DNA of 64,000 nt, taken from contig NBIV01000185.1 of assembly GCA_003194525.1 (NCBI GenBank), forward strand, positions 62,001 to 126,000, written 5' to 3'. Position 1 is the stretch's first letter, and every line of letters starts with the position of its first letter. Positions 5,280 to 27,496 of the stretch are shown here, in pieces. The notes under the pieces were generated by a model. It searched no databases. It was not told the DNA's origin and saw nothing but the letters and a program-made list of their open reading frames with translations. This DNA is from Gracilariopsis chorda. Lineage: Eukaryota; Rhodophyta; Florideophyceae; Gracilariales; Gracilariaceae. Position numbers and translations under genes: made by a program.

Positions 5280-5324
5280 TAAATAGCGCAATAGAACAAT
5301 TAAAAGGGATGGGAGGGTTTTGGG

Positions 5325-5752: not shown

Positions 5753-5940
5753 ATTATTACGCTCTGTACGCGGCCAGAACATCATTGCTGTTGAAGAACC
5801 AAAGTGTTTACACGATGTCGGATTTCCTGGATGTGCACCAGGAAATGCTCTTTCACTTGTACGCAAGGCAACCCAATCGTCGTGAAAGGGGATTGTTGTG
5901 ACTCCGAGTCGCAACAGTGCAAGGTTTGGCCTTACCTTGC
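5753..5940 (-). repeat. B1 repeat of the YR element
   Basis: First copy of the B repeat, following the recombinase ORF on the minus strand and contiguous with A2. Confidence 0.92.
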
Positions 5941-6086
5941 CAATCCCAAAATGAGAGTAATTTACTCGTGGCGGGTTCTGAGAATTTCAACGTCTTTGTA
6001 ATTAAAACATTGCCGTAGAAGTTTGTCAAAACAATCTGCGTAGCCAGAACAGAAACTCGGGTTTGCATCTCGGTTGAAATTTTGAT

Positions 6087-7163: not shown

Positions 7164-7590
7164 AGCTTCCCGCCTTAAAACGTGGTCGAGAAGGGCCGTC
7201 GGCGGGGTTTAGGGTTGTAGGTACGTGAACGAACAAAGGTTCCAAGTCGTGAGCGATGCACACTCCTGCGTATCGTCGACATGGGAGACACAGACTCGAA
7301 GATGAAGAGCGGCCCTTTCGAAAGGCGCCAATAGTAACCATAGAATCCGAAAGTATCAGGACGCGCAGACCAGTTATGTCAAAGGAGGCTGCCCATTCCA
7401 AAGCAAGGACTGCAGTATGTGCTTCAAGAACATTAATATGTTCATCTCTTCGCCATTTGTGAACAAAAGCTGTCTTCCAGTGGTGATTTTGAACAAAATA
7501 AGGCAGCATTGCGCTTGCATTCACAGACGGGCCTTCAAAAGCAAGGGCAGTAAGATTCGATATCCACAAAGTGTTGGCTTTAGTATACAC
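7156..7590 (-). CDS. RNase H domain of the YR element (separate frame)
   Basis: 144 codons from an alternative first codon, so not an independent gene. It has INVLEAHTAVLALEWA, LILSDSMVTIGAFRKG and TTLNPADGPSR, the conserved RNase H blocks of DIRS-order elements. The first catalytic Asp (VIAIDASPTPE) lies at the end of the RT frame, so a -1 shift near 7590-7600 is needed to join RT and RNase H. Either a one-base deletion inactivated the copy or the element uses frameshifting; the sequence alone does not decide. Confidence 0.85.
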   Translation of the reverse strand: MYTKANTLWISNLTALAFEGPSVNASAMLPYFVQNHHWKTAFVHKWRRDEHINVLEAHTAVLALEWAASFDITGLRVLILSDSMVTIGAFRKGRSSSSSLCLPCRRYAGVCIAHDLEPLFVHVPTTLNPADGPSRPRFKAGSYE

Positions 7591-9116
7591 AACTGCTCCG
7601 GCGTCGGGGAGGCGTCGATGGCGATGACATGATTCCAGTAAGGTCTATTGAGACGAATGGATGAAAGCGGGAGCAGTCTTGCCAGCAATGTTAGCTCTCG
7701 AAAAACGGCGACTTGAATTGAGTTGTTGACCTTCGAAGGCTGTTCCAGAAATTGAAAGGTGCGATAAAGAATAGAGAGCAAAGGCCGGCATCCTAAAGCG
7801 ATCCAAATAAGTTTTCCCACAGATGAACGAACTCTTGATTCTTCCAAGGGAGACTTGATGATCGCGGATACGCTTGTGAGCGCAGAGTTCAACTTTTCTA
7901 GTTTCGGTCGCAAGATGTGTCTTTGTAGGCACCAGTTCCATCCCATGAACGTGAGCTGACTCTTTTCCAGTTCACTGGGTGGTGATGACTTTGCACGTTT
8001 GATAGGTAACTGGTTCCGTTGAAGCACAGACTCAACGAGGTTTTGGAGCCTTATGGCATCCTGGTCGCTCCATCCTGCAAGTACGAAGTTGAGGTCATCA
8101 ATAATGTGTATTATCAAGGAACAGTTCGATGTCAACTTCACTGTGCCGTTCTGTTTGTGCAAAAGGATTGGGAAAGGGAAAGTGGATGTAAATCCGAGTG
8201 TGCGCGATGTGTCTTGAAAAATGCGAAAAGCTTCGATGTAGCATGACTCGACAAAGGTATGTCCAATAAAGACTGACCATTTGAATCCCATTGGCAATGT
8301 ACGTTGACAGGGTCGCATCTTCTGAGCTTGACGGGGCCTGAAACCCAAGGATCGTTCGATGTATCTTTGGAGTTTTCCCGGAAGATCTCCAAATGCAATC
8401 TGAGCCAAAGAGAACAAAGCGGCTAGGTTGAAGGGAAGACGAATGTTGTGGAACATATTTGAGATGTCAAGGAAAAAGCTGGACAAACCGGGTGTCGTAT
8501 CAGAGAGAAGTACAGCAGAAAAATTTCCAGGGTTAGGCAGAGACACGTGAGGTGAGTCAGGAATGCAAATGTTTTGCACCCTCGGCCAGCTGATTAACCG
8601 GTCTTTCTGTTCGTCTTTCACGACAGCAAACGAAGTCATGGTAAGATGGTTCGCAAGCTCCCTATATGAATAATTCTCTTCATCAACAAGTGACCACTGC
8701 AACATTCCAGAATCAGAGAGGCGGAGTAGCATTTGAGGGTATTGATTCGGAGCACAATGGATGGGAGGTGGTGGAACGTCAGCACTTGATATGTACATCT
8801 GAATGGTTTGGAGAAGCTGATTGAAACCATCCCCGAGAAACAAACGCTGGACTTGTTTTGGCATTCGGCTGGTCCAAACAGAATGATCAGATGACGTCTC
8901 GGCTGGCAAGTCCAGACGAGCGGCCCGAATCATCGTAAAATCACCCCGTACTAGACCCGCCGACTGGAGAGAATCAAGGAACTGAGTAGAGTCTCGTACG
9001 AGCTCGTCTTCAACATGAAGAATTTTGGTGGACTTCCTTGGGACCCAGCGTGGGAAAGAGAGGCTCTGCACTTCGTGACGTCCGTAGGTCTTGGTGAAGT
9101 CAGAATGTCTCTTCAC
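7521..9116 (-). CDS. Reverse transcriptase of the YR element
   Basis: 531 codons open. Conserved blocks: SFAVVKDEQKDRLISWPRVQN, FFLDISNMFHNIRLP (first catalytic Asp region), TLPMGFKWSVFIGHTF and HIIDDLNFVL (IIDD in place of YxDD, with both Asp kept). The end reads VIAIDASPTPE, the first RNase H block, after which the frame is lost. This is the DIRS-type RT, which copies element RNA to DNA. Upstream, about 185 bp separate it from the stop of ORF2. Likely functional except for the break into RNase H. Confidence 0.88.
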   Translation of the reverse strand: MKRHSDFTKTYGRHEVQSLSFPRWVPRKSTKILHVEDELVRDSTQFLDSLQSAGLVRGDFTMIRAARLDLPAETSSDHSVWTSRMPKQVQRLFLGDGFNQLLQTIQMYISSADVPPPPIHCAPNQYPQMLLRLSDSGMLQWSLVDEENYSYRELANHLTMTSFAVVKDEQKDRLISWPRVQNICIPDSPHVSLPNPGNFSAVLLSDTTPGLSSFFLDISNMFHNIRLPFNLAALFSLAQIAFGDLPGKLQRYIERSLGFRPRQAQKMRPCQRTLPMGFKWSVFIGHTFVESCYIEAFRIFQDTSRTLGFTSTFPFPILLHKQNGTVKLTSNCSLIIHIIDDLNFVLAGWSDQDAIRLQNLVESVLQRNQLPIKRAKSSPPSELEKSQLTFMGWNWCLQRHILRPKLEKLNSALTSVSAIIKSPLEESRVRSSVGKLIWIALGCRPLLSILYRTFQFLEQPSKVNNSIQVAVFRELTLLARLLPLSSIRLNRPYWNHVIAIDASPTPEQLCILKPTLCGYRILLPLLLKARL

Positions 9117-9301
9117 GATCGAACGGACTGCTGCTCTGGTTTGAGTTCAGGGGATATTGTTGAAGCTTTTAGGCTTACTGTACCCGAGGAAAAGGAAATC
9201 TAGAGAAGCGAGAACTTCAGTAATGTGCGATCCAGCGCCGCAAAGGGGCCCTTTTCGTAGAAACTGAGTCAAAGGAAAGGTTCGAGGCCTGACAGGATCA
9301 A

Positions 9302-10117
9302 TTACAACTGAGGTGTTTCGGTGGTGTTGTCGCGATGATTTGCTCTGGGTCTCTTGGGTCTTTGAGGTCCCCTCGTTGGTCGCTTCGCTAAACTTCGTAC
9401 CGCATTTCGAGCCCTTGATGCTGCAGATATGTGCCGGTTGACGATTGAACGCATAGCTGGAACTCTTATACCCGTGTCGGGATACACTTCCAGAGAAGGT
9501 AGGACATGTTGTAAAGCTTCGTCGCGAGTTAACGGACTGGGCCCGGAAGTCAAATTCTCTACTTCCAAGAGAGCCCAGAGTCTTCGAAGGGCTACTTCTG
9601 TCCATGGAGCTTTTGTGACTGCTTCTTCCATGGTCGCGAATGTGCAGAAGTTAAAGTGAAGACATCTCGCCAAAGTGAGGGCTTCTACTTCTGAGCTGAA
9701 GGGTCTTCCGTCCGACTGGCGCGTCCATCTGACATTTCGGACTACCAATTCGATATTCAGACCTTCTTGGCAGAAAGAGTGAAGAATAGATGGCCACATG
9801 AGTTGCTGAACGTTGAGGAGTACGGAAGAGTGGCCCGGATACGCTGCAAGTTGGCTCGGACGTACGGGCGTTGGGCCTCCGAGCCTTGAATAAAAATCCT
9901 GTGCTTCTTCGTCACCTTCTCCAGTGGGGACTCCAGCGACATGATGAATCTTTTGTCTCTTTTTGTTCACATCTTGAGGCAGTAGGTCATCCAAAGGGTT
10001 GGGCCTTTTGGGCGCTGGAGGCGTATCGTCCAGAATTCGCGTCGGAGCCTGCGTAATATCGTCTACCTGAGCCATGTCTCTTCGTTCGAGAGCTGCACGA
10101 GTTGCCCCAGCTGCCAT
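9302..10117 (-). CDS. ORF2 of the YR element, Gag-like
   Basis: 271 codons. The sequence is basic and Pro/Arg-rich at its end (RPTRGPQRPKRPRANHR), with a charged N-terminus containing KKRQKIHH. It lies between ORF1 and RT, where Gag sits in PAT/Ngaro elements, and overlaps ORF1 by about 55 bp in another frame. No zinc knuckle is seen. Its role as nucleic-acid-binding Gag is inferred from position and charge. Confidence 0.6.
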   Translation of the reverse strand: MAAGATRAALERRDMAQVDDITQAPTRILDDTPPAPKRPNPLDDLLPQDVNKKRQKIHHVAGVPTGEGDEEAQDFYSRLGGPTPVRPSQLAAYPGHSSVLLNVQQLMWPSILHSFCQEGLNIELVVRNVRWTRQSDGRPFSSEVEALTLARCLHFNFCTFATMEEAVTKAPWTEVALRRLWALLEVENLTSGPSPLTRDEALQHVLPSLEVYPDTGIRVPAMRSIVNRHISAASRARNAVRSLAKRPTRGPQRPKRPRANHRDNTTETPQL

Positions 10118-10551
10118 TTGAGAATGAGACTACAAACAGACTTTGCGTCATCTGAATCATACGCTCTCGGACTGAGTTTCGAATTGAGGCGCATACAGGT
10201 TTCAACAAGCTTAACCAAGTCTGGGAGGTTGCTTAATGCCATTTTGTCAAGATCCTCAACGGATAACGAGAACATTCTTTCTATTTCACGTGGATCATCC
10301 GCGGGTTCAGTACTGTTGCCTCCGCTTGCAAGCATATTTTCTCGCCAACCAAGAACAATAGCCAGAAGTTTGTACACACTTCTTGGCACAGCAGAAACTT
10401 GACTACGAACATGATTTGGAGCGGTGGAGACAATGTTCTTCAAGGCACTGTGATTTGCAGTACAAAGCGTGTCGATGGAGACTGATTGAAGGTTGCTGTA
10501 TGTGAGCGGCACAATCTGTCTTTCAGGATGAATGTCATCTGATTCGGACAT
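10063..10551 (-). CDS. ORF1 of the YR element
   Basis: The longest open frame begins inside repeat A1, but the first ATG after the repeat is at 10551 (MSESDDIHPERQ), giving 162 codons. No known domain is recognised. It is the first ORF downstream of A1 and overlaps ORF2, which suggests one Gag-like product split over two frames or two structural proteins. Confidence 0.55.
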   Translation of the reverse strand: MSESDDIHPERQIVPLTYSNLQSVSIDTLCTANHSALKNIVSTAPNHVRSQVSAVPRSVYKLLAIVLGWRENMLASGGNSTEPADDPREIERMFSLSVEDLDKMALSNLPDLVKLVETCMRLNSKLSPRAYDSDDAKSVCSLILKWQLGQLVQLSNEETWLR

Positions 10552-10575
10552 GTTGAGGCAGTTAAAGCAAACCAA

Positions 10576-11003
10576 CTTAAACCAGAGAGAAAACCAAAAC
10601 CGTGGTTTTGAACGTAGGAAAGAAAAGAACCACGGCAATGAAACAACACCAAGAGCACGAAGACTGTTCTGAACGACGTTTTGTTTTGTGTTTCGAGATG
10701 AAGGACTCGTTTGTACCGAAATGCAGCATCTCTTATACGGAAACAAATTTGTTCTGATCTGTCCTTTTGTCCGTTTCAGAATTGGGTGTCACATTCAACC
10801 CACTTAGTCTCGTTTGAAACGACTCTTTCGAGAATTCAAATCAGATCACTGTCACCTACGCAATTCTCAAACTTGATTTCTGTCTCACCACCACCAATGC
10901 ACAATTCACCAAATTCAGCGTGCGCACTCTGTAACATACTATCCATCAATTACAATGCGTCTCGCTACCACCCGCTCCAATAAAATATCATCACAATTAG
11001 GCC
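10576..11003 (-). repeat. A1 terminal repeat of the YR element
   Basis: 428 bp, near-identical to A2 (5325-5752). It is the 5' end of the element on the minus strand and borders the element A gag segment ending CNNLTNGA. Confidence 0.92.
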
Positions 11004-11585
11004 AGCCCCGTTTGTCAGATTATTACATAACGACACCAAGTCTTCAAAGTCTGTTAAGTGCTCTTTCATGTCATTTGCATCCTTTAGCTTGATATCCATT
11101 ATTTTAAAATGGGCAGCGACCTTTTCGTTCGTCGGAACGAACTCGCGAATTATTTCTTGCCTCAATTCTTGAATCGTTGTGGGCTTCTGGTTTTCCCGTT
11201 GTAGACGAAGTATCCAAGAGGCTGCGCGGTCTTGCAAATGACACTCGGCTAAAGCAACCATCGTCTCTTCGGATTAGTTGTACAATGTTCCATATTTCTC
11301 TATGGAGTAGAAACAGCTTCTAAGTCGCTCTAAATTTCGATCTGCAACACATCCCTTGAATACAGGGATCGGAGGAGATTTGAATGCATTTGTACCAACG
11401 TGGACTTGATTACCCGCACTATTTTGCCTTTCGTTTAGACGTTTCTGTAAAGCTTTAATCACGTTGGTGTGTGGCTGCACTGTCGATTGCAGTGAAGCAA
11501 ACTGTTCTCGAAACTGTGAAGCGTTGACGGGTTCAACTTCGTTGTCGTTGTCGACGTTTCTTCGGCTGCGCGTACCAGAACTCAT
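11004..11585 (-). pseudogene. N-terminal gag of element A
   Basis: ATG at 11583-11585 opens a frame that stops at 11274 and resumes in the same frame (ETMVALAECHLQDRAASWIL, then IREFVPTNEKVAAHFKI and NDMKEHLTDFEDLVSLCNN). These are the hallmark blocks of the retrotransposon Gag domain: the AxxxLxxxAxxW helix and a later FxxL(v) segment. One in-frame TAA breaks it. It is cut at 11003 by the YR element and continues at 5091. Confidence 0.8.
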
Positions 11586-11606
11586 TCTTTTGAAAACGTT
11601 CCTGAA

Positions 11607-11624
11607 CTCGTGCGATTGCTACCA
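11607..11624 (-). promoter_or_regulatory. Probable primer-binding site of element A
   Basis: Minus strand TGGTAGCAATCGCACGAG, 22 bp before the gag start. The first eight bases match the complement of the initiator-Met tRNA 3' end, the usual primer of Ty3/gypsy elements. The LTR expected just beyond it (above 11625) is absent; element C sequence begins there. Confidence 0.5.
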
Positions 11625-13640
11625 AATCCCCGGAACCTCCTTTTGCCCTCGTTATCACCCCCGCAGGGGAATGCAGCATCGACTCCGGCTGTTGCCGCAG
11701 TGCCCCAGGCACCCCGGCCCGCTCCCGCTGTCGCGGCTTCAAACCCCTGTGGAACGGGCGATAACACCCCCCATGGGACTTCCCTGGAATCCCAGGTCGG
11801 CGCTCTGTGGACCACCCATGACACCCTTGTAGGGGAACTAAAATCCCTCCAAGAGGTGGTCTTGGCAACCCCCGTAAAGGAGGTTGCCGAGGAACTCCGT
11901 ATTTTACGGTCTGACGTCAACTCCGTGTTGGAGAGTTTGGGACAACCCGCCACCTTCATCGAAGGAGTTGAAGCCCGATTTGATCGGATTGGTGCCGGCC
12001 TGGAGACCCTGGAGCAGTTCGTCCTCATGGACAAACCATCCCCGGATGATCCAGTAAACGAGGCATCGCACTACGACCAGCTTGCTGGGAAGAAGAAACG
12101 CCGTCATCGACGGAAACACCACCGAAAATATTCGGACTCCGATTCTTCGACATCGTCAGACGCATCCCGAGACCATTCGGTTAGCTCGAGCTCCTCGGAC
12201 TCCGACTCGGAGGACGAGAAGCGAGGCTACTCCTCCCGCTCGAAGCGGTCATCGGCCACTGAAGGTGTGGTCCGAACCCGCCAGAAGGGGAGAAGACACC
12301 CCGGTCTCCAGGAATTGAAACCGACGAACCCGGATTACCGGAAGCTTTTATCATACCGGTACTACCGGCTCGAAGATTCGTCACTTGGACGTACGCCCCG
12401 TGGTACGGGAAAGGTGCGAGAATGCATTAAGCGAATGCAGCTCTCGCTCCGAAACCAGTATTTTACTGGAGAGGACCCAGTCCTAGTACTGGATTTCCTA
12501 TCCCGCTTTGTAGCGGAGGCCGATATCCTCGGTATGAATGAGGGACAAGCCTATTTGGCTTTACGGTATTTCTTACGGGGAGTGGCAGAGGACCAATACA
12601 ACTCTGTCAGAGGATCTTCTCGTGCCTCCGAGGGAGGGGTTACTTGCTGGCCGGAGGCTGTGCAGTATCTTCTGCGCTCCTACGCCACCAACACCGCTAT
12701 TCAGCAGGCTATCCTCGCTTTGCGAGATACACGCCAGCGTGCTGGAGAGACCGAGACCGATTACTCGGTGCGCCTTAACAAGGCTTTCCACAGATGTGGT
12801 AACCTATACCCGGCTGGGGAGCGCAGTACCATGTTCATCGATGGTCTTGACCCGGCAATCCGGAGTTTAGTTATGCGTTATTGGGAGGACAAGCGGAGGA
12901 TCACCTATCTTGAGCTGGTCCAACACGCCCGAGCGGAAGGGGATGCACTTCGTGCAAGAGCTCCGAACAATCGTTCTAAATCCGCCAAGGCGTTGTTGCT
13001 AGAAAGCGAAGCTTCCTCACTCCCGCTCACTGCGGATGGGAACCCTGGACAGGGATTTGATACCGTGCATTTAGTGCAGGGGGATGGTGTGTCGATACCC
13101 ACCAGTGATTTGCCGTCATCGACGGAGATGACCCGTGATACGGGAACAGAAGATCCCGTTCTATACGGTGGTAACGGTCAGGTCCAACCCCAACGACTCC
13201 CGTTTTCAAACGGTCAATCCCGTTATCAACGGCCTGGATGGACTGACACCCGCCCTGCGGTTCGCTTCTCCGATACTCGGAATAATAATCCGCGTGTCGC
13301 GGTATTGGCTCTCATTTGCCACCTGTGCTATGCCCATGGCCATACCTCACCTCATTGTATTTGTTCACTGAAGGATATGGCCAAGGTAGTGGCAAATTAT
13401 GAGGCCCTCACTCCAGAGGAGAAACGTTCCGTCCCGACAGCTTCCTACCTCCGTGCTAAAACGGACTTTTCCCACGCCCTACCACAGACCCCGCGTGCGC
13501 GGCAAGCTTCATACACCCCGATTCGGGAGATCACGCAACCATCCGTTGCAACCCCCGCTTATGCGGATAGAAACCCCCGTCAACGGGATGAAGCACTCGT
13601 TGTCGAGGAAACCAACCCACCGCCGAAGGCGGGAAACTAA
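11610..13640 (+). pseudogene. Gag of element C, 5'-truncated
   Basis: The frame is open for about 676 codons, but the first ATG is roughly 140 codons in, so the true start is lost. In order: a Pro/Ala-rich N-terminal part, a helical stretch (EELRILRSDVNSVLESLG), a Ser/Asp-rich acidic and RS-like block at 12130-12250, the retrotransposon Gag domain (RNQYFTGEDPVLVLDFLSRF through LRSYATNTAIQQAILALRD), and a CCHC zinc knuckle CHLCYAHGHTSPHC near 13314-13360 with canonical CX2CX4HX4C spacing. Gag packages RNA in virus-like particles. The stop at 13638 is followed by a different frame for protease. Confidence 0.85.
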
Positions 13641-13657
13641 CTGAGGGAGTCTCCCCT

Positions 13658-14515
13658 TTGGGAGAGGCGTCCTCAAAAACGAGGCTGTTGGCGCCCGAGG
13701 CGTCCTCGCCTCGCTCCCCGGTGAAAGTCCTCTCGAGGAAAGACACCACTGACGCGGACTCTGCGCACCTCGGTGTGTTGCGTCGCCCGTGGATACGGAG
13801 TAAAAATCCCCGGATTCCCGGTAGAGTCTTGGTCTTGGCCAAGCGCAATTATAAGGTCTATGCCGACCTTGGCCTTGATCCCCAGTTTATGGTGAGGTTT
13901 CTCACCGTTCTGGATACAGGTGCAGGCCCCAACTTTGTTGTGGAATCATTGTTACCCCCGCTTGTGCGGTCTTGTGTCCGCTCTGACGCGGTCCCCGACA
14001 TTTCGGATGCGAACAACAATCCGTTACAAACGGTGGGCACAGTGGACCTCGTCGTGAGACTTGGTACCTCTGTGGTGAAGTTAGACTTCATCGTTTGCCG
14101 TTCATTGGCAGCACCAGTCATACTGGGATGTGATTACTGCGACATATTTGTCGACGCAATCAGGCCCCGCCTCAGGCGTGTAGAACTTGACGACGGATCG
14201 TCGGTTCCGATTGTTCGCTGCCCGCTAAAGTGGTCCTCTCGGAAACAAGTTCCGCTCCCTGCTGCGCAGGAACCACCGCCCGCGTCCCGCGAGTCCACCA
14301 AGCTCCGCGTCGCTGCCTCGGTTTCTATACCGGCTGAATCCCAAGTCCGGGTGCAGGCAAATTCCCGTCAACACGGTCTTCGGGTTATACAACCCCTCGC
14401 CTCGTTGTACGAGAAATCCCAGTTGGCGCTGGCTAATGTAATTGTCTCCATTTCCCCGGATGTTCCTTTCCGGATATTGGTTGCCAACCTTGGCAAACAC
14501 CCCAGTATCTGGTAA
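13658..14515 (+). CDS. Protease of element C
   Basis: About 285 codons in a separate frame just after gag. The active-site loop FLTVLDTGAGPNFV carries the catalytic Asp, and VILGCDYCDIFVDAIRP is the conserved second block. A downstream segment (PAESQVRVQANSRQHGLRVI) is the linker usually found between gypsy protease and RT. Homologous segments are in element E (36434-36721) and G (44705-45220). It may be expressed by frameshift from gag, which is inference. Confidence 0.82.
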   Translation: MGEASSKTRLLAPEASSPRSPVKVLSRKDTTDADSAHLGVLRRPWIRSKNPRIPGRVLVLAKRNYKVYADLGLDPQFMVRFLTVLDTGAGPNFVVESLLPPLVRSCVRSDAVPDISDANNNPLQTVGTVDLVVRLGTSVVKLDFIVCRSLAAPVILGCDYCDIFVDAIRPRLRRVELDDGSSVPIVRCPLKWSSRKQVPLPAAQEPPPASRESTKLRVAASVSIPAESQVRVQANSRQHGLRVIQPLASLYEKSQLALANVIVSISPDVPFRILVANLGKHPSIW

Positions 14516-14550
14516 AACACCAAGTAATTGGGAGTGTAACCCCCCATCCT

Positions 14551-16884
14551 ATGGGAATGCTGCCAACGAAGATGACAGCCGCCGATGTACTCGGAGTTAC
14601 CACCTCTTCTGAGGAGTTCACCCCGCCGTCCGAAGACGTCAAGTCTAAGGAGGGGGAGGAAACCGCTACTTCAGCGTCGAACATACCGAGTAACTCGGAA
14701 TTGCGAACCACACCTCTTCCACAGGACAATGCTCCATCGAGCAACGACCGGATTGATCCGGAAAAGGCACTTGAAGCGCTGGACTTCAGCCACGTGCCAG
14801 AGTCGCACCGCGACAAACTCCGTACCATGTTACGGGAATTCACCACAATGTGGGATGGCTCGCTTGGCGAGATTAACCCAACGGAACACCGGATCGATTT
14901 AATCCCCGGTGCGCGACCGGTTGCACAACCCCCTTACAGGGCAGGTCCGGAAGCTCGGGAAGAGGAGCAGTCCCAAGTGGACAAGATGCTCCGCGCAGGT
15001 GTGATTGAGCCCGCTCAATCACCCTGGGCATCCCCAGTTGTACTGGCTTTAAAGGCCGACGGAACCTGGAGGTTCTGTGTCCACTACTGCCGGCTCAATG
15101 CCGTGACCGTTAGGGACACGTACCCTATCCCTCGTATGGACGAGTGCATTGACTCCCTTGGAGACGCCACCGTGTTCACGGCCCTTGATGCCAATTGGAG
15201 ATATTGGCAAGTACCTGTCAGACAGGAGGATCGCGACAAAACCCCATTCACCTGCCACGCAGGAACGTACCGCTTCAAGCGGATGCCATTTGGGTTAACC
15301 AACGCCCCTGCTACCTTTCAGCGTGCAGTAGATATTCTACTCAACCGCTTTAAGTGGCGGAGTTGTCTGGTCTACCTTGATGATATTATCATCTTCTCCA
15401 ACTCGTTGGACGACCATCTCACTCACGTCCGAGACGTGCTGACCGTACTCCGCGATGCGGGAATTACCCTGAAGTTGAGGAAATGCGAGTTCTTCACAGA
15501 TACTGTGAAGTATCTGGGTCGAATTATCCGTCCTGGGCGGTTAGCGATCGAGAAAGCTCGAGTCAAATCCCTCGTTGAGGCGAAAGAGCCCCGTACTCAA
15601 ACGGAACTGCGCTCCTTTTTTGGGCTGGTCAACGTCTATCGACGGTTTATCCCGAACTTTTCGCATACCGCGGCGCCCCTAAACGCGTTGTTGCGAAAGG
15701 GGAACCCCCCAAAACTGGGAACATTTACGCCCGAGCAATCGGAAGCTTTTAACTCCTTGAAGGAGGCTGTCACATCAGCACCAATCCTACATCTCCCAAA
15801 ACTTGGGTTGCCATACTCCGTAGATACGGACTCGAGCGACTACCAAGTCCGGTGTGCTCTTTTTCAAACCACCCCCGAGGGGGAACGACATGCAATTGGT
15901 TATTGGTCGCGCTCGCTCAATGTTCATGAGCGGAACTACTCCGTATCGGAGAAAGAGTGCCTCGCCGTCGTCTGGGCGATGACCACTCTGCGCCCCTACC
16001 TTATGGGAATTCACTTCACCGTGTACACGGATCATTCCTCATTGAGGTGGTTGATGAATATTTCCGACCCGTCGGGACGCCTCATGCGCTGGAGACTCCG
16101 CCTCGCAGAATGTGACTTTCAAGTCATTTATAAAAAGGGCGCGCAGAACACCCATGCCGACGCCTTGTCGCGGTTACCCACAAGTGGGGAAGCACTCCCA
16201 ACGGAGGATGATGAAGTCCCATGTTTCATGGCCATAGACCCGGATGATCCGGAATGTGCCGTCGAGGCTGGGCCAGAAAACTGGGACGAGGATGCTGACT
16301 TTGACGAACTACTTGCATCGCGAGATGAATCTGAGAACCCGTTACCGGGAAACTTTGTACCGGTATCACCGGAAGAAATGATCCGAGAACAATTCGGTGA
16401 CCCATTCTGTACGAGGATTCTTGCCCGTCTTAACGGTGGTGAAGATCTCCCTTTCGGGGTAAACGACAAAGGCTACCTCGTAAGAAAGGTCGAAGCCCGC
16501 CCACAGATTTTGGTACCTCATTCCCTGCAGTAGCGGGTGTTACATCTATCACACTACGCCCCCATTGGAGGTCACCCAGGTGGGAGGAAACTCTACCTAA
16601 CCCTGCGAAGGGATTTCTATTGGCCCGCAATGGCGGTGGATTGCTACGCAACTGTGCGGTTTTGTAGCGAATGCGCGAAGAATCGCGTCAAACTCCGCAA
16701 AAATGCGAAGAAGATGAAACTATTCCCCGCAAGGGCGCCACTCGAGTTTATTGCAATTGGTCTTCTCGGACCACTACTCACCATGAAACGTGGAAACAAG
16801 TTTCTACTTGTCATTACCGACCGCTTTTCTAAGCTGTTACGGACGGTCCCTCTTCGGAGGATAACCGCTCTCACGGTGGCCTAG
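14551..16884 (+). pseudogene. RT / RNase H / integrase N-terminus of element C, with TAG at 16531
   Basis: RT blocks: AGVIEPAQSPWASPVVL, WRFCVHYCRLN, FTALDANWRYWQVPV (first Asp kept; Trp-Arg where Ser-Gly is usual), MPFGLTNAPATFQ and LVYLDDIIIFSN with both Asp. RNase H: SVDTDSSDYQ, SEKECLAVVWA, VYTDHSSLRWL and THADALSRL. Frame 1 is broken by TAG at 16531-16533 and continues with the HHCC domain (HLSHYAPIGGHPGG, then DCYATVRFCSEC). The next block reads FIAIGLLGPL, where the first integrase Asp is Gly (codon at 16759). A second TAG is at 16882. Both stops could be single C-to-T changes from CAG. RT/RNase H itself looks intact. Confidence 0.88.
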
Positions 16885-18504
16885 GCTCTGGTGACGCACT
16901 GGATTTTCGTCTACGGTCCCCCTGTGGTGGTGCTCTCCGATAACGGGAAACAGTTCGTGAGCAAGTTCTTCCAGGATGTTTGTCACATCCTGGATGTCAA
17001 GAACTTGTTCACGACTACCTACTACCCCCAGTGTAATGTGCAAGTTGAACGCTTTAACCGGACGTTACTGGCGGCGTTACGTTCCTACTTCGCAGACCAC
17101 CCAAAGAACTGGGACATGTACGCTGATGCGGTAACCTACGCGTACAATACGCAGGTACACCGGACTACCGGAGTTTCGTCATTCAAGTTGGTTCTACATA
17201 GAACACCCCCGCCTGTGGCGCTGGAACCCCAAGCTACCTTGGACAATTTCCCATCAGTGGGTATCTACCGGCAGCAATGGAAGAAATGGCTTTCCAAGCT
17301 GGTCCCCGCTGCGCGGAAGTCTATGGCACGGGCCCAAGCCGCTTACAAGCGGGATTTTGATGCTCGCTTGCGAGGGAAACCGTCCCCGATTCGGGCGAAT
17401 AACTACATCTTCATAAGGAAGGAGTACTACAACCCGGAACGGGAAAAGCGCCATAAACTCTCGCCTGTGGCGGATGGACCATTCAAGTTCATCTATGTGA
17501 ACACCGACACTGTCGTGGTAGAGATGGGCGACACGCACGAACGGATCTCCCGTGATCGTGTTGTCCTTGCCCCTCCTTCCTCGTCAGAGGTAGTCCTGGA
17601 TCCAGGCAACCCCGTTTCTACGGACTCTGCTCCACCGGAACCATCCGGGAGTACTAGGCCTACGGTACTACCACACCCCAGCCACGGACTCTCAGACCTA
17701 CCGACCCTGTCGGACTCACCGGCTCAGCCGGGTAATTCGGGCCTCTCAGCGCCCGCCCCTACCACGTCTGCCCCACTGGCGCGCGTTTATACCCGCCAGG
17801 CGGGGAATGTTATCCCTTATCCCGCCGCTCCGTCTAAGGAGGGGGAGGAGAACACTCGTTTTCGAGGAACGATATCCCCGTCGCAACGGGAAACACACCG
17901 TAAAATACGGAACACTGACCGTGGAGCACGGAGTATGTCACGCGACACTAATCCCCCGTTCTCGGGCAGTTCTGTGCAACAGGAACCAGACACGCAGGCC
18001 CCGCAAAAGTGGCAAATACACCGTTTTTCACGGGAAAACGAGAAGCCTCCCTCCAATACCGCAGCAGCGGAAATGCAATCGCCCGATCCATCCCCGGAGG
18101 CATCGCCACAAACGCGGGAAATATACCGTGCCACACGGGAAGTTGAAGCGCAACTACCGCACACCCCTCTTAGGGAAGGATCCCCGCTAAGCCGCCATTG
18201 GCGGAAGCCCACGCGGAGAAGAGGCGTCCAGACACGCCAGCCTCACAGGGAAATACCCACACCCCTCTTGGGGAAAAAGGCAGCAAAGCCGCAGTCGAAG
18301 CTTCAGGCCCTGGCGTGCAAGCGCCGGAAACGCCTCCCGTCGTCGACGGAATCGAAGGCCCCGCTCCGGGGAATAATTTGCGCCGACCCCCGCATCGCTG
18401 CGGCGAAGAACCGAGGAACTCGGGAAAAACGCGCGCCATCGCACGCTCGACACCGGTCGTACCGGGCGCTGCTCCTCCTCATGGAGATGGTGCACCGCGC
18501 TTAG
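16885..18504 (+). pseudogene. Integrase core and C-terminal extension of element C
   Basis: In frame with the preceding segment after TAG. VLSDNGKQFVSKFFQDVC holds the second catalytic Asp, and YYPQCNVQVERFNRTL the Glu, with the Gly-Gln-x-Glu motif partly changed. LSPVADGPFKFI is a GPY/F-like module near 17460. Beyond about 17570 it is Pro/Ser-rich low-complexity sequence with dense short palindromes, so this part is probably a spacer. The chromodomain lies in another frame (18198-19274), so one indel or a frameshift separates them. With the first Asp lost (see 16759) the enzyme should be inactive. Confidence 0.8.
16956..17013 (+). other. Long stem-loop inside the integrase coding region
   Basis: Arms CGTGAGCAAGTTCTT (16956-16970) and AAGAACTTGTTCACG (16999-17013) pair with one mismatch (G opposite T, a G-U wobble in RNA). 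The inner arms CCAGGATGT (16971-16979) and ACATCCTGG (16985-16993) pair perfectly around a 5-nt loop, with a 5-nt bulge on the 3' side. The homologous part of element E does not keep this pairing. Confidence 0.7.
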
Positions 18505-19274
18505 CGGCAATTCCCCTGAAAAGGGTGTCATCGGCACCTGCCCTGCACCCCCCAAAGGGGAATTTTGACCAAAATACCGGTGTACCGGAGTTAGCCCCAG
18601 GCAACCCGTCAGTAACCTGGGACACCACGGCGTCGCCGGAACGTATGGTGCAGAGCGCTCGTGCACCTGGCAGGGAGGCCGAACGCTTACCAATCACCGT
18701 GTCGCACGGGACCCCGCAGGGGATGTCGCAAACGCCGTTCTCGCATACGCGGCAAGAACCCCGCAAGCTCGTGGTTCGCGAAGAAGACCGCACTCGCGGA
18801 GTTCAAGTCCCCCGCCGGTTGGCGGTTCGCCCGGCCTACCGTGAAGACGGGAACAACGACACCCCTCTGGGGAACGACTTGCCGGTGGAAACCGTGACCC
18901 CACACACCCTCTTGAGGGATATTTTCCCGCATGAGCAGCGCCCACTAGGACAGCGCACGGCAACGCCGGAGACATCGCTGACAACCCGGATAGGGGGTAA
19001 TATACCGCGCAGCGGACAACCCTCGCAAGGGAATACAACCACCACCCGGCACGGCCGGCACGTTTACGAACGAGAGTTCGTAGTAGACCGACTTGTCGGA
19101 CACACCTGGGACCAGGATGGTATTCTACAACACTGCGTCCGCTGGTACAGGTATGACCCCAGTGGGGATACGTGGGAGCCAATCGAACACCTCCCACGGT
19201 CGCAGGTCGTGCGATACCACCGTCAAAAGGGAACTGCAGCTCCAGCCACGCTGGTAAATGCCCAAGTTGGGTAA
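18198..19274 (+). pseudogene. Chromodomain-bearing C-terminus of element C
   Basis: An open frame without ATG, in a frame different from integrase. The first 290 codons are Pro/Arg/Gly-rich low complexity. The end has YEREFVVDRLVGH, HCVRWYRYDP and GDTWEPIEHLPRSQVV, the typical chromodomain aromatic cage and WEP motif (about 19060-19230). In chromoviruses this domain follows the integrase and reads histone marks. The frame change from the integrase probably reflects an indel in the spacer, since the two belong to one polyprotein in relatives. Confidence 0.8.
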
Positions 19275-19531
19275 CGTTGCCGCGCGAACGGAGGGCGATA
19301 GGAAAGGATAACAAGGCAAGGTCCGTCGAAGACGGGGAACTCAAACGAAAATCACCGTTCAAAACGGGAAAGTTTATTCAAGGGAGCAGCTAGCTCCCCA
19401 CAACACTATACTACAATAGCCGGCTATGCCAGGAAAGAAGAACCGGAGACGGCGTACGCGTTTTTATCACCCATTTTCGTCTGGGAACCCTCCGCGTCCG
19501 CGGTCGTTTTCCCGTCTTAGGGGGGGGGATA
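19275..19531 (+). other. 3' untranslated region and polypurine tract of element C
   Basis: Noncoding after the chromodomain. The tract AGGGGGGGGGATA at 19519-19531 directly precedes the LTR start TG at 19532, as required for plus-strand priming. Confidence 0.8.
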
Positions 19532-20358
19532 TGTATTGCCACGCCCTCAGGGAGGGATTCTTGGTACTTGAACACTTTCCCGATATTATCGGTTGTGTAG
19601 TGTGTATATGAACTACGCCCCACTATGGTGGATATGGACACGTGAGATACGGTTTTGGGTCAATTGGCGGTTGGCCACAGTAGTGGATGTTGCCACGAAA
19701 TGTGGAGTATTTTAGTTAATATTATCTATTATTTTCACACCCATTTCTGGGAAGCTAGTACTTAGTGCGACGGCGCACTGCCGTCGCACCAGTAAACCTT
19801 CCCCAACAAGGGACCCCAACCTGAGGAATTGGCTCTAGTTGTTGCTGCTTGCGCGCGTGCTCTACTCCTCCTTGGAGGGAAACACCGTAAACCACGGGAC
19901 ATCTAACCCCCCTGCACATCTAAAGAAGCCCATCCTTGGGAGTATAATTGTTCCAGTCATATTGGTGCTTCGCCCTGTATAGGGAGTCCTGTCCACCGGC
20001 ATTGCCGTATCTGTTCGTCACTCTCGCGACTCACTTCGTCCTCTCTTCCTCCTCTTCGCCCTTCCTTTTTCCCCTTTTTAGGGTAGCACCTCCCACTACC
20101 CGCGGCCGTCGTGTGCGCATCCGCTCACATACCCCCACTTAGGTGGAAACATACCTTTACTGAGGATCACACCCCGCTCACGCGGATACCGATTCTTTGC
20201 CTTCACCTCCCTGCGCGAGTCGCGACAGGTGTCCCTGGTCTTACAAACTGGCTTCGCCGTGACACCTCTGGGAGGGCTCTACCCAACTTTGTTCACCTCG
20301 TGAGAGGAAGATCCCGAACGTCTTTCGGTGTTTTTCCCCTTTGGGGCATTGCACCACA
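19532..20358 (+). repeat. 3' LTR of element C
   Basis: 827 bp, from TGTATTGCC to GCACCACA. It aligns throughout in reverse orientation with the solo LTR at 34086-34881. It holds a run of short hairpins: 19544-19556, 19580-19592, 19620-19631, 19675-19686, 19693-19705, 19740-19751 and a 10-bp perfect stem at 19765-19789 (GTGCGACGGC, 5-nt loop). The right flank enters a different repeat; no partner 5' LTR exists to test a target duplication. Confidence 0.9.
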
Positions 20359-21600
20359 CTGCAGTGCCAGCCACTGAGAAGCAAAGAGGCAATCAACATG
20401 CAGTAGGAGCCAATGCACTGCATGCTATGCTGCTGCTGAATTTTTTTTGTGGCAGGGATGTGGTGCGCCAGAATGCCGCTTTTCATGCATTTACGGGGCC
20501 TTGTGAAGCGATGTTGTGGCGCAACCACTCCATTCAGTCAACGACATCCCCCTAGTACGCGTTTTAGTGCCTAACAGTGCAGAGACAAGAATATGCCTTC
20601 GGATCCATGTTTAGCTTGGTGCAGCAGAAAGAGGTTCTGCATGCTACCCCAGAGCCAAATATTGTTTGATGGATCCAAAGAGGTAGTTCACATACCTCTA
20701 AATGTGATTTATGTTTTGACTAACACATGGTCATCCAAGTGCACGTGATGGCAATTAGCTGGAACTGCAGTCATTTACTGTAATTCCAGCCACTCATAAT
20801 CAGGCACAGTGAATGTGCAGCCGCAGCCAAGCCACCAATAAGCTTTCGAGCGTTGCTGCTGCTGCTGCTGAATTTTTAAATTGGGGAGTAAAATTGCGCC
20901 AAAGTGGACCTTAAGGGCACTGAAAGGGGCGTCCAAAGGGATATTTCGGCTCAACGTCTCCTGTCAATCAACAACACCCCCCTCATTGTTCTGCAAATCA
21001 TCCTAATACTGGGGGGTTTTGAGAGGGTTAGAAGCGGTCTTCGGCCGTGGGAGGCGCTGCGCAGATTGAGGGTGACTTCAGGGATCTGCAGGCCGTTTCT
21101 GCTCGCTATCGCTCGCAAACGGCCTGCACACCAATGACGGCCGCAGCGCCGAGAGTGAATACGGAATTTTAATTCCAATTGAGCGCCCCAGCGTTGATGA
21201 TTAGCTGGCACTGCAGTAGTCTGTGTAGATTACAGTAGATTTTAATTGGCTGGCACTGCCAAAGTGACTGCATTGCGACCCACTGAGCAGCGGCGGTAGT
21301 CAACATACAGCAGAAGCTACTTAGCTTTGAGGTCTGTTGCTGCGGCTGTTGGTGGTTGTGATGCTGCTGCTGCTTAATGTTTTGAAAGGATGGGAGGCGT
21401 TGCGCCAAAAGAGGTTTTTACCCGCGCGGAAGGGGCCGTGCGCTGGTGTTTTTTTCGAAACGCCTCCATTCAATCAAAAACTACCTCCTCATACGTCAAT
21501 ATGTCTATATAGTGAAGAGATACTGCGAGCTTTTGAGATTATCATAGTGCGAGGGGTGTTGAGATTACACCTAAAAGCGGGATCTGAGACCTATTTGAAC
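20359..21600. repeat. Diverged tandem repeat array, about 415-bp unit, noncoding
   Basis: Three diverged units begin near 20360, 20770 and 21200. Each has in order a GCCxxCCACT-type start, a CAACAT-CAG block, a run of CTG triplets, AATTTTT, a GGAGG-TGCGCCA block, a GGGGCC segment and a C-rich tail (CCATTCAGTCAACGACATCC in unit 1). No coding potential is apparent. A nested inverted repeat lies between units 2 and 3. Confidence 0.65.
21053..21150. repeat. Nested inverted repeat (cruciform-capable)
   Basis: Inner perfect arms TGCAGGCCGTTT (21087-21098) and AAACGGCCTGCA (21117-21128) enclose an 18-nt loop. Outer perfect arms GGCGCTGCG (21053-21061) and CGCAGCGCC (21142-21150) enclose that. Could be the core of a small non-autonomous DNA element or a replication or recombination structure; no identification. 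Confidence 0.75.
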
Positions 21601-21870
21601 AGCTAAGTATACTCAGTCTGACTAACAGTATAAGTAGTGATCGATCTATCTTGATCTGAGAAGAAAGAAAAGAAGAAGGTAGCTCCAGTTACCATACTAT
21701 AACTCTGTCTTTATTAGTACAGTATACACTTCATAAACTAAACTTTAACGGGTTACGGCTTTTTGGTATAGTGATTAATATGAACTATGGACAACGCTCT
21801 TGTCGAACTTTTGCCGCTACGATTTACGTACTGTAGACACCATTCCAGTGACAGCGAACAACGCAACGGT
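21601..21870. other. Unassigned spacer
   Basis: AT-rich sequence between the tandem array and the 3' LTR of element D. I see nothing identifiable. Confidence 0.4.
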
Positions 21871-22476
21871 GACAAGTCAAGATTTAGCAAAACAGTAACT
21901 TACATCGTAGCAAATACATGAGCACTAGCCACCGAAACGACCATAGTGGTCATTCACATCACCAAATTAAACAAAGACTCCACAGAAACACAAAACAATA
22001 AAGAATATCTTCATCTTGCTTGGTCCTGCAGACCGGAACAAGAATTCATACCTGGTCTTACGCTATATCAAGAACCATGTTTAGTGAATACAACGGAGAG
22101 AAAACAAAAAAAAGGCAGTCCACACCACCTCTTAGGCCACAAACATCCACAAGAAAAGAAACAGCTGCCGGTCTTGGAGCAGACGCCAACGTTGGACGCC
22201 TGTTATAGACAAGAAGATATGCCTTTTGATATATAGAACCATGTTTTTCTAGCTTCTGCATGACGCAATTTGTACGTATCTACTTACTGTGATTCGACAA
22301 AATGCGGGACCAGCTGATACGTAATTATTTAATAATTAGAATACACAAAAGGCATAGGCGCTGTCAAAATAACTAAATTCCATGGCCAACACGGCTCACT
22401 CGCTTGCCACTGCGTAGCTGCCACTCAACACGTGGGGTGCTACTCTCAGCACCATGTCTCACACTTGCACTTGGCA
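21871..22476 (-). repeat. 3' LTR of element D (approximate borders)
   Basis: Aligns with 41054-41941, for example CAGCTGCCACTCAACACGTGG-type sequence near 22420 and 41885, and GCAATTTGTACGTA-type sequence near 22265 and 41730. The partner is longer by about 280 bp in the middle, so one copy has an indel. Confidence 0.7.
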
Positions 22477-22600
22477 CTCTCCCATTCTTCTTCTTAGCGG
22501 TCGCTGCACCCGGCAACCAACAACTATTGGTCACTCTAAACTTGGAACAATATCCCAGACGGAAATTGAAATTGAATTTTATATCCGTACGGTTTCGGTC

Positions 22601-23059
22601 TCAAGCATATCTGAAAACAAACAACTGGCCGCTTTTAAATGTCATGATAAACTGCATAGTCTCCCCTGTGTACGTTTTCGTTGGCGGTAAATGTCCATAC
22701 TGACTGACGACGAAACGATAGAGATACTTTAAAAATTCTACAACTACATGCCTTCCAATGTGGGGGTCCAGGTGGTCCATTAAGGGTAGAACAGTCTGGA
22801 AGACTTTTTGTCTTGAGTAGGGACCATAGAGCTTGTATATTGAAATCCAAAGATGTACTAGATCCGATACGATCTTTTCCTGAATATTGTCCAGCCTCCG
22901 GGAGGATGCGAGCCACGCATAGATGGGGTGGCCTGCTACGAAGCTCATCTGTAGATTTTCATCCTGGTCATAGATGTTGAAGTCCATCATAGTCGGCATC
23001 ACCACGGGATCTAACGCTTCATCTTCCATGTCATCATCGTTTAACATATTCACATACAC
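22601..23059 (-). CDS. Unrecognised 152-codon ORF between integrase and LTR of element D
   Basis: No family recognised. The predicted protein begins with an acidic stretch (DDDMEDEALDP), has aromatic-rich segments (HPIYAWLASSRRLDN, VEFLKYLYRFVVSQYGHLPP) and no clear signal peptide. It is one of the longest open frames in a region where pol is full of stops. It sits after integrase, where some gypsy elements carry an extra gene, but element H has nothing there. It may be fortuitous. Confidence 0.3.
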   Translation of the reverse strand: MYVNMLNDDDMEDEALDPVVMPTMMDFNIYDQDENLQMSFVAGHPIYAWLASSRRLDNIQEKIVSDLVHLWISIYKLYGPYSRQKVFQTVLPLMDHLDPHIGRHVVVEFLKYLYRFVVSQYGHLPPTKTYTGETMQFIMTFKSGQLFVFRYA

Positions 23060-24172
23060 ACCATTCCCCCCGTTAATGTATGGCAGCGCTTGCGTTTATG
23101 CGTCTCGGCACAGGCATTAGAGTGGGCAGGGCGGGTATAGTAGGGCATAAAGCGTAGAGCATGACTTCCCTTCCGCTTGACTCGGTTTCTCCCCGATATG
23201 AGCTCGTAACAAGGGTGCGTCGCCTTGGCTACCGTAGTACAGGGCCTTGAATGCAGGTCACTTCACATTCGCATTCAGCGCCTTTCCGCGCACTACCAGC
23301 ACTTAGTATCAAATACACAACCTGTGTCCTTATTTTCAAATATCCTTCCGAATTGGCTGCGACGCAATCCTCTGCTCACGAGGACCAAGTGTTGCCAGTA
23401 TCTCTGCCTAACGATGAAACGGAGTTGATACACATCGCAAGGTGACAGAACCGGCATGTTATATGCGTGGCATTGTTCCATAAGGTAGCTCGAGGGGTGA
23501 ATGTGCTTCTCTGAGCGTGCAGCGTCGGTACCCATACAAATCCCCTGGTATTGCTTCGTCCCACTGCACGTCTTTTTTGGGAAATATTTTTTCGACCGAG
23601 TGCTTGATGGTTCCAAACATCCTCTAAACACTTGCGTCCGACTTTGGAGCTTATGCCGGAATCCTCCCCCACTCGATCCTTCTATTATTCACAAACATCT
23701 GTACTACACATGCCATGAAAGACCTAGCTTTGTCAGATATAATTACTCTAGAGAAGCCGAACGAATCGATGATCTGGGTCCTGATAACGCCAAGAACCAC
23801 CATGGCGGTATAGCTCGTTGTAACCAGGGCTATGTTCTGTTCTTTCAAGTGTTCCACCCCAACCACTATAGATCTGCTTCCTGCCTTGAGCACTGGAAAA
23901 GAACCAGTGAAGTCGAACTAAAATATACGAAACAGCCTGGTTAGAGAGCAGCGCTGCCCGGCTTTATAGGAAAGCAGCGGCTTCATAAGTTGGCACTGCT
24001 TGCAACTCGTGACGTATTTTGATATTTCTGCAATGAAACAATGCCACCAAAACTGGTCTAAGAGAAACATCTGCGTGGCTGCTAAGTCCAGGTGGCCCAT
24101 ATCGTCATAAATCATCCTCAATAGTGCCTCGTGCTCTGCAACAGAAGGCACAGTGCATGTGCAAACCTTCAC
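23060..24172 (-). pseudogene. Integrase of element D
   Basis: The zinc-binding region is at 23918-24172 (DDMGHLDLAATQMF, YVTSCKQCQ); its first His is Tyr compared with the H copy. The core is at 23651-23893, with SFGFSRVIISDKARSF covering the second Asp. 23293-23672 corresponds to the part after the catalytic Glu (MFRG, KNISQKRR in two frames). Several frames are needed, so the gene is dead. Confidence 0.7.
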
Positions 24173-25707
24173 GGATTCGTCGGAACAATCTTCCTTCCCA
24201 TACGTGGAACGTCTTCTAGTTCCTTTTCACTGCGGCCTGTAGCTTGAAATTTGGCTCCTGTATGGGCATACCGCTGATTTATCGTGCGATACTAGCGTAG
24301 TAGGGCTCGAATCCTGAGGAAGGTTCTACGACCCGTACGCTCAGAACTTCTTACTCCATTCGCTATGAAGCACGGCTTCCTCCTTTGTATCGCGAGAGGT
24401 AAGAGGCCGCAGCTTTTCCAGCTCCAGGTCAGTACACCATATCGAACTCGTACTCGGCAAACAATTCCGGCCTGCGAGCCAGCCGATCATGGGCTTCCTT
24501 CTTCTTGAAGGCATGACTCAGTGCCTGGTGATAGGTTACCAGCTAAAGTGGCTGTGCCCCAAGAAAGTAAATTTGGAACTTTTTCAACGCAAAAACCACC
24601 CAAAGAGCTTCTTCTTCGCACACGGAGTATCTTTTTTTGGCTTCGCTCATCATCCGGCTGGCATACTAGACAGGATGAAACATTTGGTTTCCTCTCTTCT
24701 GAGAAGGGACCGCACCTACGGCAACCGAAGAGGCATCCGTTTCGATGCAAATGGAGACTCAAAATCTGGGAATCCTAAAGCGGATGGGCTAGTCAAGTTT
24801 TCCTTCAAGTTTTGAAACGCCATGCGCATGTCATCTGCAAATTTGAATTTCTTATTCTTTGATTTTGCAGCATGTAGCACCCCAGCGGTCCCTCAAAAGT
24901 TGCGAATGTAAAGCCTGTAGTACCCAGCAACCCCGAGAGAACTTCTGAGTTTGGTTGTTGTTTCCGGCTCTGGGGGCTGGATGATAGACTCTATCTTGGT
25001 ATAGCCCACAAAGAATGCTTCTTTGCTGACACAGTGACGTAACAAAGCTGTTCTGGGTTGAGCAAAGCTGCACTTTGAAATCTTCAATTTCAGACCATGA
25101 GTGGCGACTATCTGCAACACACTCGTGATTTGACACACGTGATCTTCCACTTCCCGTAAAGAGATGACAAAAACATCAACATAGACTCTGAAGTTCCCGA
25201 TATCGGACAGAATCGAGTCTATGATCCTCTCAAATGTGGCTGGGGCGTTCATGAGCTTAAAAGGCATCACTCTGAAATAGAAGGTCCGGTATCGACAATC
25301 GAACGTAGCCATATCTCTGCACTGGAGCGTCATCTGATATTCCAATACCACGAAAACATATCCAAGGTAGTGAAAAACGAGTTTCCTCTAAGTTCGTCAA
25401 AGCATTGCTCAATATAGGGAAGTGGCCATCTATCAGCCTTCAAACGTTGGTTCTGCGAGCAGTAATCAACACAAGAGCGCGGTTTTACATCGTTCTCTGT
25501 ACAAATGACCACCCGAAACGACCATGCTGAATGAGCGGGCATGGTCATCCCGACAGCTAGCATTTTTTCCACCTCCTCCTTGACCATTTTCTCATGCTTT
25601 GCAGGAAGGCGACGCACCGGTGAAGATATTGTGGTTCCTTTTGCTAACGAAAATTCGTGTAGTGCTGGGACATCTGCGGGGCGCACGTTTTCCAGAAACC
25701 ATGACAT
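24173..25707 (-). pseudogene. RT / RNase H of element D
   Basis: RT blocks NVRPADVPALHEFSLAKG, PAHSAWSFRVVI, LKADRWPLPYIEQCFDELRG and FFTTLDMFSWYW are at 25330-25707. FRVMPFKLMNAPATFERI and FRVYVDVFVISL are at 24893-25351. The active site reads YVDV where H has YIDD, so the second Asp is Val. RNase H remnants are at 24487-24762. It aligns block by block with element H. Confidence 0.8.
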
Positions 25708-27491: not shown

Positions 27492-27496
27492 CTTGC
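27492..27496. other. Left target-site duplication CTTGC of element E
   Basis: CTTGC here and at 39968-39972 directly flank the outer ends TGTAGGGC and GCTCTACA of element E. Confidence 0.9.

Follow-up and report, generated by a model that had tools for sequence, protein, structure and literature searches.

Short CC...GG hairpins along a Ty3/gypsy chromodomain retrotransposon of the red seaweed Gracilariopsis chorda

Introduction

Retroviral and Ty3 packaging or dimerisation hairpins are few and lie near the 5' end, and bacterial REP/REPIN palindromes, which are short, numerous and dispersed, are mobile copies of related sequences. In persistent RNA viruses, genome-scale ordered RNA structure (GORS) runs along the entire genome. 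MS2-type dispersed packaging signals are, according to PMC6281560, many short stem-loops with variable stems that lie genome-wide, including coding parts. Here we analysed a hairpin array in element C, a retrotransposon copy within a 64,000-nt stretch of Gracilariopsis chorda DNA (GenBank assembly GCA_003194525.1, contig NBIV01000185.1, positions 62,001 to 126,000 of the forward strand), hereafter the window. Judged from its sequence, element C derives from a Ty3/gypsy chromodomain retrotransposon with long terminal repeats (LTRs); the copy is decayed and lacks its 5' end.

Like the retroviral and Ty3 systems, element C combines hairpins in element nucleic acid with a CCHC Gag, but its array spans gag, pol, an antisense open reading frame (ORF) and the LTR. 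In contrast to REP/REPIN, its stem sequences differ and its pol region aligns between families without insertions. No REP- or MITE-like presence and absence of hairpins as insertions was seen in pol, where gap columns between families are few (12 and 72 in 2.9 kb; 6 and 3 in 2.2 kb; 7 and 3 in 2.4 kb). For this reason the insertion of small palindromes, suggested in a preliminary description of the window, was rejected. Compared with the MS2-type signals of PMC6281560, element C also has multiple dispersed stem-loops, at one per 42 nt in the C set, but these have fixed CC/GG stem ends in place of a shared loop recognition motif and make no use of G.U pairs; lacking such a loop motif, the array was not assigned to the dispersed packaging signals. 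From the structure of persistent viruses it differs by a fixed unit of 11-13 nt in one orientation with a spacing, by the absence of long-range folding and by a unit that is not the most stable one. Among the matches listed by searches of the open-access literature on retrotransposon hairpins, palindromes and packaging signals, no report of such an array appeared. Its architecture seems to us new in kind; proof that Gag binds the hairpins would instead make the array a distant variant of dispersed packaging signals.

Hairpin density in element C

Counting perfect stems of at least 5 bp with loops of 1-4 nt gave 146 centres in element C (16.8 per kb), against 33.9 ± 6.4 in dinucleotide shuffles (n = 20). 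Five other stretches of the window were compared in the same way; two lay at shuffle level (1-11500, 45 vs 47.9; 56000-64000, 27 vs 28.1) and three were mildly high (20400-32000, 51 vs 40.1 ± 6.3; 44000-56000, 57 vs 42.2 ± 5.6; 32000-44000, 65 vs 44.5 ± 7.1). By a strict criterion (CC..GG ends, stem of at least 4 bp, loop of 3-5 nt, non-overlapping), 146 hairpins were found in the 8.7 kb of element C and 56 in the remaining 55.3 kb of the window. Along the whole element there is about one hairpin per 40 to 60 nt, and in the C set one per 42 nt, covering 31% of the sequence. The individual hairpins of the preliminary description were all recovered, namely eleven with 5-bp stems and 3-nt loops, the 8-bp stem at 15492-15510, the 6-bp/1-nt readings at 16240-16252 and 18337-18349, and CCTCTTCGGAGG at 16849-16860; for 18021-18588 we counted 8 stems of at least 5 bp with loops of at most 3 nt, where seven had been given. 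Of the eleven, the hairpin at 15939-15951 begins with CT and not with CC.

Two further families of the same genome served for comparison with family C: C2 (copies L010 and L029-L034), about 69% identical to C, and C3 (L021 and L036-L043), about 77% identical in pol and about 55-63% in the linker. For copies with long open frames we used shuffles that preserve protein, codon usage and dinucleotides (25 per copy). The family C copies L007 and L004 held 78 hairpins (16.7 ± 3.7 in shuffles) and 67 (15.7 ± 2.9), and the C2 copy L033 held 49 (14.7 ± 3.4), so that the refuting outcome named in the preliminary description, an equal density in such shuffles, was not observed. Densities in eight C copies ranged from 17.0 to 21.2 per kb, with 17.6 for the window copy.

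The array occupies gag, the protease region, reverse transcriptase (RT) and RNase H, integrase, linker, antisense ORF and LTR. Regional z-scores over shuffles were 10.1 for gag, 9.7 for protease, 13.0 for RT-RNase H, 5.3 for integrase, 6.9 for the linker and 5.2 for the antisense ORF, and in three LTR copies they were 2.3, 4.3 and 4.3. The LTR of the window copy has 7 hairpins and other LTR copies 10-11, each against 3.0 expected; gag (11640-13630) carries 19.1 per kb and the RT-RNase H frame (14500-16533) 18.2 per kb. Element C is GC-richer than the surrounding window DNA, as would suit an origin of the hairpins in base composition, codon bias or chance; however, such an origin is practically ruled out by the dinucleotide, codon-plus-dinucleotide and regional shuffles together with the genome control and the span-specific pairing given below.

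Geometry and orientation of the hairpin unit

The unit has CC...GG ends, a span of mostly 11-13 nt and inner bases that are complementary down to a loop of 3-4 nt (example in Table 1). In families C and C3 the excess of CC/GG covered spans from about 9 to 14 nt, and in C2 those from 9 to 13 nt. Inner complementarity stood well above 25% for pair 3 at span 10, for pairs 3-4 at spans 11-12 and for pairs 3-5 at span 13, was weak at span 14 and was gone from span 15 on; other sampled sequence showed neither the CC/GG excess nor such inner pairing. Since the inner pairing stops where the loop would fall below 3 nt, it points to a folding single strand and not to a protein dimer on double-stranded DNA. 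Dimer sites of the CCG..CGG type on double-stranded DNA were rejected on the loop limit, on inner bases that vary yet pair and on the lack of enrichment of loopless palindromes.

Over codon shuffles, CC..GG hairpins were enriched 4-11 x, GG..CC hairpins 1-2.7 x and hairpins with other ends 1.2-2.5 x. The CC..GG counts were 61 vs 8.7 in pol and 38 vs 3.6 in gag of family C, 30 vs 5.5 and 11 vs 1.1 in pol and gag of C2, 22 vs 3.5 in the C3 linker, and 21 vs 4.8 and 27 vs 5.2 in the antisense ORF of two copies. The corresponding GG..CC counts were 10 vs 5.3 and 2 vs 1.9 (C), 5 vs 3.7 and 2 vs 1.4 (C2), 7 vs 2.6 (C3 linker), and 5 vs 3.0 and 3 vs 3.0 (antisense ORF). GG..CC hairpins would be about equal in stability to CC..GG hairpins, yet are little enriched, which argues that stability alone is not the target. 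Among the five-bp/three-nt hairpins of copy L008, 15/46 have A on both sides, and the flanks in the linker are A-rich. A flanking-A motif was discarded, as in pol A is mostly what follows GG and precedes CC anyway.

Restriction to one clade

The genome control comprised 264 kb, that is, the window and twenty 10-kb samples. Clade sequence had 499 hairpins in 39.9 kb (12.5 per kb), compared with 983 in the remaining 224 kb (4.39 per kb). Of the 92 dense 500-bp windows, 72 were mostly clade sequence. Strict hairpins numbered 187 in 10.3 kb of C, 73 in 8.6 kb of C2, 68 in 6.6 kb of C3 and 61 in 140 kb of other sequence (14/20 samples, the six with clade sequence being excluded). Nine other RT stretches of 20-51% amino-acid identity gave 0 to 1.9 x the shuffle mean, none of them more than 2 standard deviations above it. 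In the sampled genome the hairpin array is confined to three families of one clade. Within the window, 38001-38750 is hairpin-dense (7-8 per 500 bp) and has no match to the clade sequences used.

Conservation of the hairpins between families

Stem pairs of the linker were still Watson-Crick in the other family at fractions of 0.72-0.86, against 0.42-0.47 for isolated pairs at similar distances, in ten comparisons that share copies. Two-sided changes in these stems kept pairing in 0.43-0.86 of cases against 0.31-0.35, with only 5-10 such changes per comparison; in pol the excess was weak (23/41 paired vs 41% in the control). With nested spans counted apart, and against a shift null that does not model plain sequence identity, 14 of the 21 C3 hairpins shared their centre with one of 33 C hairpins (null mean 0.8, maximum 4 in 2000), and in gag-pol 16 of the 33 C2 hairpins did so with one of 89 C hairpins (mean 1.3, maximum 6). 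Between the window copy, L011 and L017, linker stems defined in a third sequence differed by 1.8-4.7%, vs 8-16% elsewhere. In the integrase region the values between close copies were 2.3-6.4% vs 4.1-8.0%, with 1/4 sets reversed in one comparison, and in the antisense ORF stems differed by 22-25% vs 30% elsewhere. Paired changes made up 4/32 of the shared stem-pair changes among eight C copies (controls 11/272); among copy-specific changes they made up 8/198 in C3 (control 29/1612) and 0/121 in the eight C copies (16/846). From these alignments roughly half of the hairpins in shared regions look old, and the remainder appear to turn over.

The preliminary description had proposed that structure is what is kept. 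This agrees with loops that change while stems stay, with paired stem changes and with about half of the hairpins being in the same place in families 60-69% identical; it does not extend to the many hairpins that are family-specific.

Spacing of the hairpins

Preferred gaps between hairpins are 5-10 nt in all three families, and several family C copies show a short-range quasi-periodic spacing near 20.5 nt. A strict long-range lattice found no support: in a track made without selecting between overlapping hairpins, little is seen at distances over about 130 nt. The 15-30-nt windows of this track are biased, a non-element control scoring equally high. Two enzymatic sources were also discarded. 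RNase H of the Ty3 type, with a spacing of about 13 bp according to the review PMC5371799, does not account for 20.5 nt, and G-clamped primer ends do not account for the GG, Ty3 RT having no preference for them according to PMC3407194.

Interpretation of the array

The preliminary description did not contain the rules for orientation and loop, the confinement to one clade or the spacing. We consider it very probable that the array is real and partly selected as structure. It may be preserved for its folding in single-stranded nucleic acid of the element itself, either genomic RNA or complementary DNA. A protein of the element would then read the hairpins on the single-stranded genome, with Gag and its zinc knuckle as the first candidate and RT as the second, and the large number of weak sites, set at a preferred distance from each other, would serve to pick out and compact the nucleic acid of the element. 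We tentatively propose that each hairpin is a putative docking unit for a protein of the element particle, most likely Gag and otherwise the reverse-transcription complex. The mode would resemble that of dispersed packaging signals, the difference being a CC/GG clamp in the stem and no motif in the loop. A reader encoded by the element is the simplest account of an array that runs through every part of the element, is confined to one clade and has both an orientation and a spacing. That the clade evolved a structural code over its whole genome, in which an 11-13-nt CC/GG unit with near-20.5-nt spacing extends over every frame, the antisense gene and the LTR and is read by a putative element protein that lines up bead-like along the single-stranded RNA or complementary DNA, is a wider and somewhat doubtful proposal.

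Several results weigh against selection of the hairpins for such a reader. No motif is shared by the loops, whose bases are mixed with only G and C somewhat depleted. The 20.5-nt spacing is missing in the window copy alone, in the gag piece and in C2, is marginal in C3, and is weak when no choice is made among overlapping hairpins. Many hairpins are family-specific and turn over, and stems are not depleted of changes among the LTR copies or among the eight C copies; for the latter, this may reflect that most copies are dead and that fast-changing CpG abounds in stems. At the positions of C hairpins in pol, C3 and C2 differ by 0.310 in stems and 0.315 elsewhere, and the strict C hairpins are not conserved as a set between C2 and C3 (stems 0.351, other 0.305). 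Pairing shows no wobble preference either: one-sided changes between C and C2 comprised 40 G.T and 43 A.C, conserved hairpins with one odd pair had 6 G.T, 11 A.C and 37 other (eleven overlapping comparisons), and near-perfect CC..GG hairpins of the C sense ORFs, the antisense ORF and C3 had 42 G.U vs 35.1 expected and 113 A.C vs 44.8. In C2 the two were even (33 vs 17.0 and 36 vs 20.1), in LTRs they were 9 vs 5.1 and 5 vs 3.7, and other outer mismatches lay 1.9-3.4 x over expected, so that G.U is the odd one out. Changes specific to one copy of family C were balanced between C>T (76, for 1475 C) and G>A (64, for 1289 G). In copies L001-L008, copy-specific changes in window positions 13000-18000 were about three times commoner at CpG than at other sites, as expected if the element is CpG-methylated.

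Because G.U is not favoured, plain sense-RNA structure is not established. Strict pairing, a requirement on both strands, the minus strand and a wobble-rejecting reader are the readings left; the G.U tolerance on the transcribed strand that GORS-like structure would bring was not seen. A sense-RNA structure adjusting how the messenger RNA is translated or how stable it is would accordingly be very unlikely, even though stems form oftener in the sense strand of C pol (33/56) and of the linkers (16/17 and 10/13). No sense excess appears in gag (11/25) or C2 pol (10/26), the preference in the antisense ORF is for its own strand (with higher values for sense in only 4/12 and 4/14), and the non-coding LTR holds the array too. 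A role in translation alone, suggested earlier, is unlikely for the same reason, as non-coding LTRs and the antisense ORF have the same hairpins. Packaging by Gag, also suggested, is possible, although the missing G.U preference argues against its plain sense-RNA form. Structure that follows the coding strand of each gene was hinted at by loop bases and pairing probabilities but did not hold up with codon shuffles and shorter stems.

The main competing explanation is mutational: RT would often switch template in short near-palindromes and copy one arm onto the other, so that replication makes and repairs hairpins without benefit. Strict Watson-Crick pairing without wobble preference, hairpins alike in coding and non-coding parts and a trait confined to one RT clade fit such a process, and the paired shared changes in C and the copy-specific ones in C3 fit it and selection alike. 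Arm copying alone, however, would not slow substitution as seen in the linker stems, the CC..GG orientation is no obvious product of it, and none of the copy-specific stem-pair changes in C was paired, though most arise after insertion; we regard this explanation as rather unlikely. Escape from small-RNA silencing would make each 20-22-nt stretch self-structured through the spacing of about 20 nt, so that guides load badly or miss their target. The spacing near 20.5 nt and the plus-strand A.C excess in C and C3, which equals minus-strand G.U, are in its favour, as is the size of small RNAs in another red alga, Chondrus crispus, which according to PMC4872230 is chiefly 22 and 21 nt. Yet C2 has neither this spacing nor the strand tilt, and stability is not maximised, with GG..CC left unused; we regard silencing escape as unlikely.

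Should a protein read the array, its nucleoprotein arrangement would have left an imprint, spacing included, on a coding genome, and tests of packaging selectivity and particle geometry in LTR retrotransposons could start from sequence. Hairpins written by reverse transcription would be a mark by which one enzyme can be seen. In both cases the unit is well delimited and easy to test, and protein frames, an antisense frame and hairpins coexist.

The carrier element, its copies and the antisense ORF

The features of a Ty3/gypsy chromodomain carrier were found, namely RT, RNase H, integrase after RT, chromodomain and LTR (Table 1). Pfam detected RT with RNase H and the chromodomain in element C; integrase was a weak match below cut-off in the window copy and lay above cut-off in the C2 copy L033. 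The Pfam chromodomain scan covered family C, where the domain was seen. A CCHC knuckle is present in gag of families C and C2. The 5' LTR of element C was looked for and not found. In the host assembly (91.3 Mb, 1081 contigs) the element is high-copy: 40 of 1397 candidate copies were scored, the lowest at 97% identity. Its top-scoring RT relative, with 66% identity, is from Agarophyton chilense. Outside the G. chorda genome, relatives numbered 0/52 matched stretches in viral_contigs and 1/55 in genome_contigs, the latter a 38%-identical locus in a bacterial bin that was not used.

Table 1. Positions of element C, its parts and selected hairpins (window coordinates unless a copy is named)
Feature	Position	Strand	Basis
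Element C, carrier of the whole hairpin array	11640..20358	+	Domains, copies in the assembly, hairpin density
146 non-overlapping CC..GG microhairpins, first to last	11658..20346	.	Strict scan
gag open frame, 706 amino acids stop to stop, starting upstream of the element boundary of the preliminary description	11520..13640	+	ORF list, hairpin counts
CCHC zinc knuckle in gag	13317..13358	+	Motif scan
Protease-region open frame (which we take to be protease, from a motif)	13592..14515	+	ORF; no Pfam hit
RT and RNase H frame	14437..16533	+	ORF, Pfam, hairpin counts
Example unit CCGCTTCAAGCGG	15270..15282	.	Scan
Frame with integrase core end (weak match, below cut-off) and linker start	16885..18504	+	ORF, Pfam
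Proline-rich linker and chromodomain region; hairpins kept in place with family C3	17641..19274	+	Family alignments
Paired stem changes between families: C CCGTGTCGCACGG, C3 (L036) CCGCGTGACGCGG	18697..18709	.	Alignment
Chromodomain match	19077..19202	+	Pfam, residues 302-343 of the frame from 18174
Hairpin in 10/12 aligned copies; loop changed and stem kept in the window	19355..19367	.	Alignment
3' LTR, 920 bp	19439..20358	+	Copy alignments
Antisense ORF copies	L011:2810-4429; L017:1103-2650; L021:3961-5562	-	Copy alignments

The antisense ORF, of 540 amino acids, lies between the end of pol with the chromodomain and the 3' LTR in families C and C3. The window copy is without the 1.77-kb segment that holds it; at 19439-19444 the flanking alignments overlap by about 6 bases, which resembles a microhomology deletion. 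Differences between L011 and L021 fall on the three codon positions as 113, 89 and 262. The protein has four relatives (Gracilariopsis chorda, Gracilaria domingensis and two metagenomic) and had no match in Pfam (best E 0.094), NCBIfam or PDB (best E 0.24). A 30-39% identical relative is encoded at 28878-29976 (+) in the window, and a distant Ty3-type RT lies on the opposite strand from it at 24315-25668. Several Ty3 lineages of red algae may thus possess the antisense gene.

A second LTR-like stretch, at 34086-34882 of the window, is 71% identical to the LTR of element C and adjoins RT fragments of 43-47% amino-acid identity. The C2 copies L010 and L029-L031 stand in tandem on a contig of the assembly (contig C3, about 100300-119923) with a period of about 8811-8813 bp.

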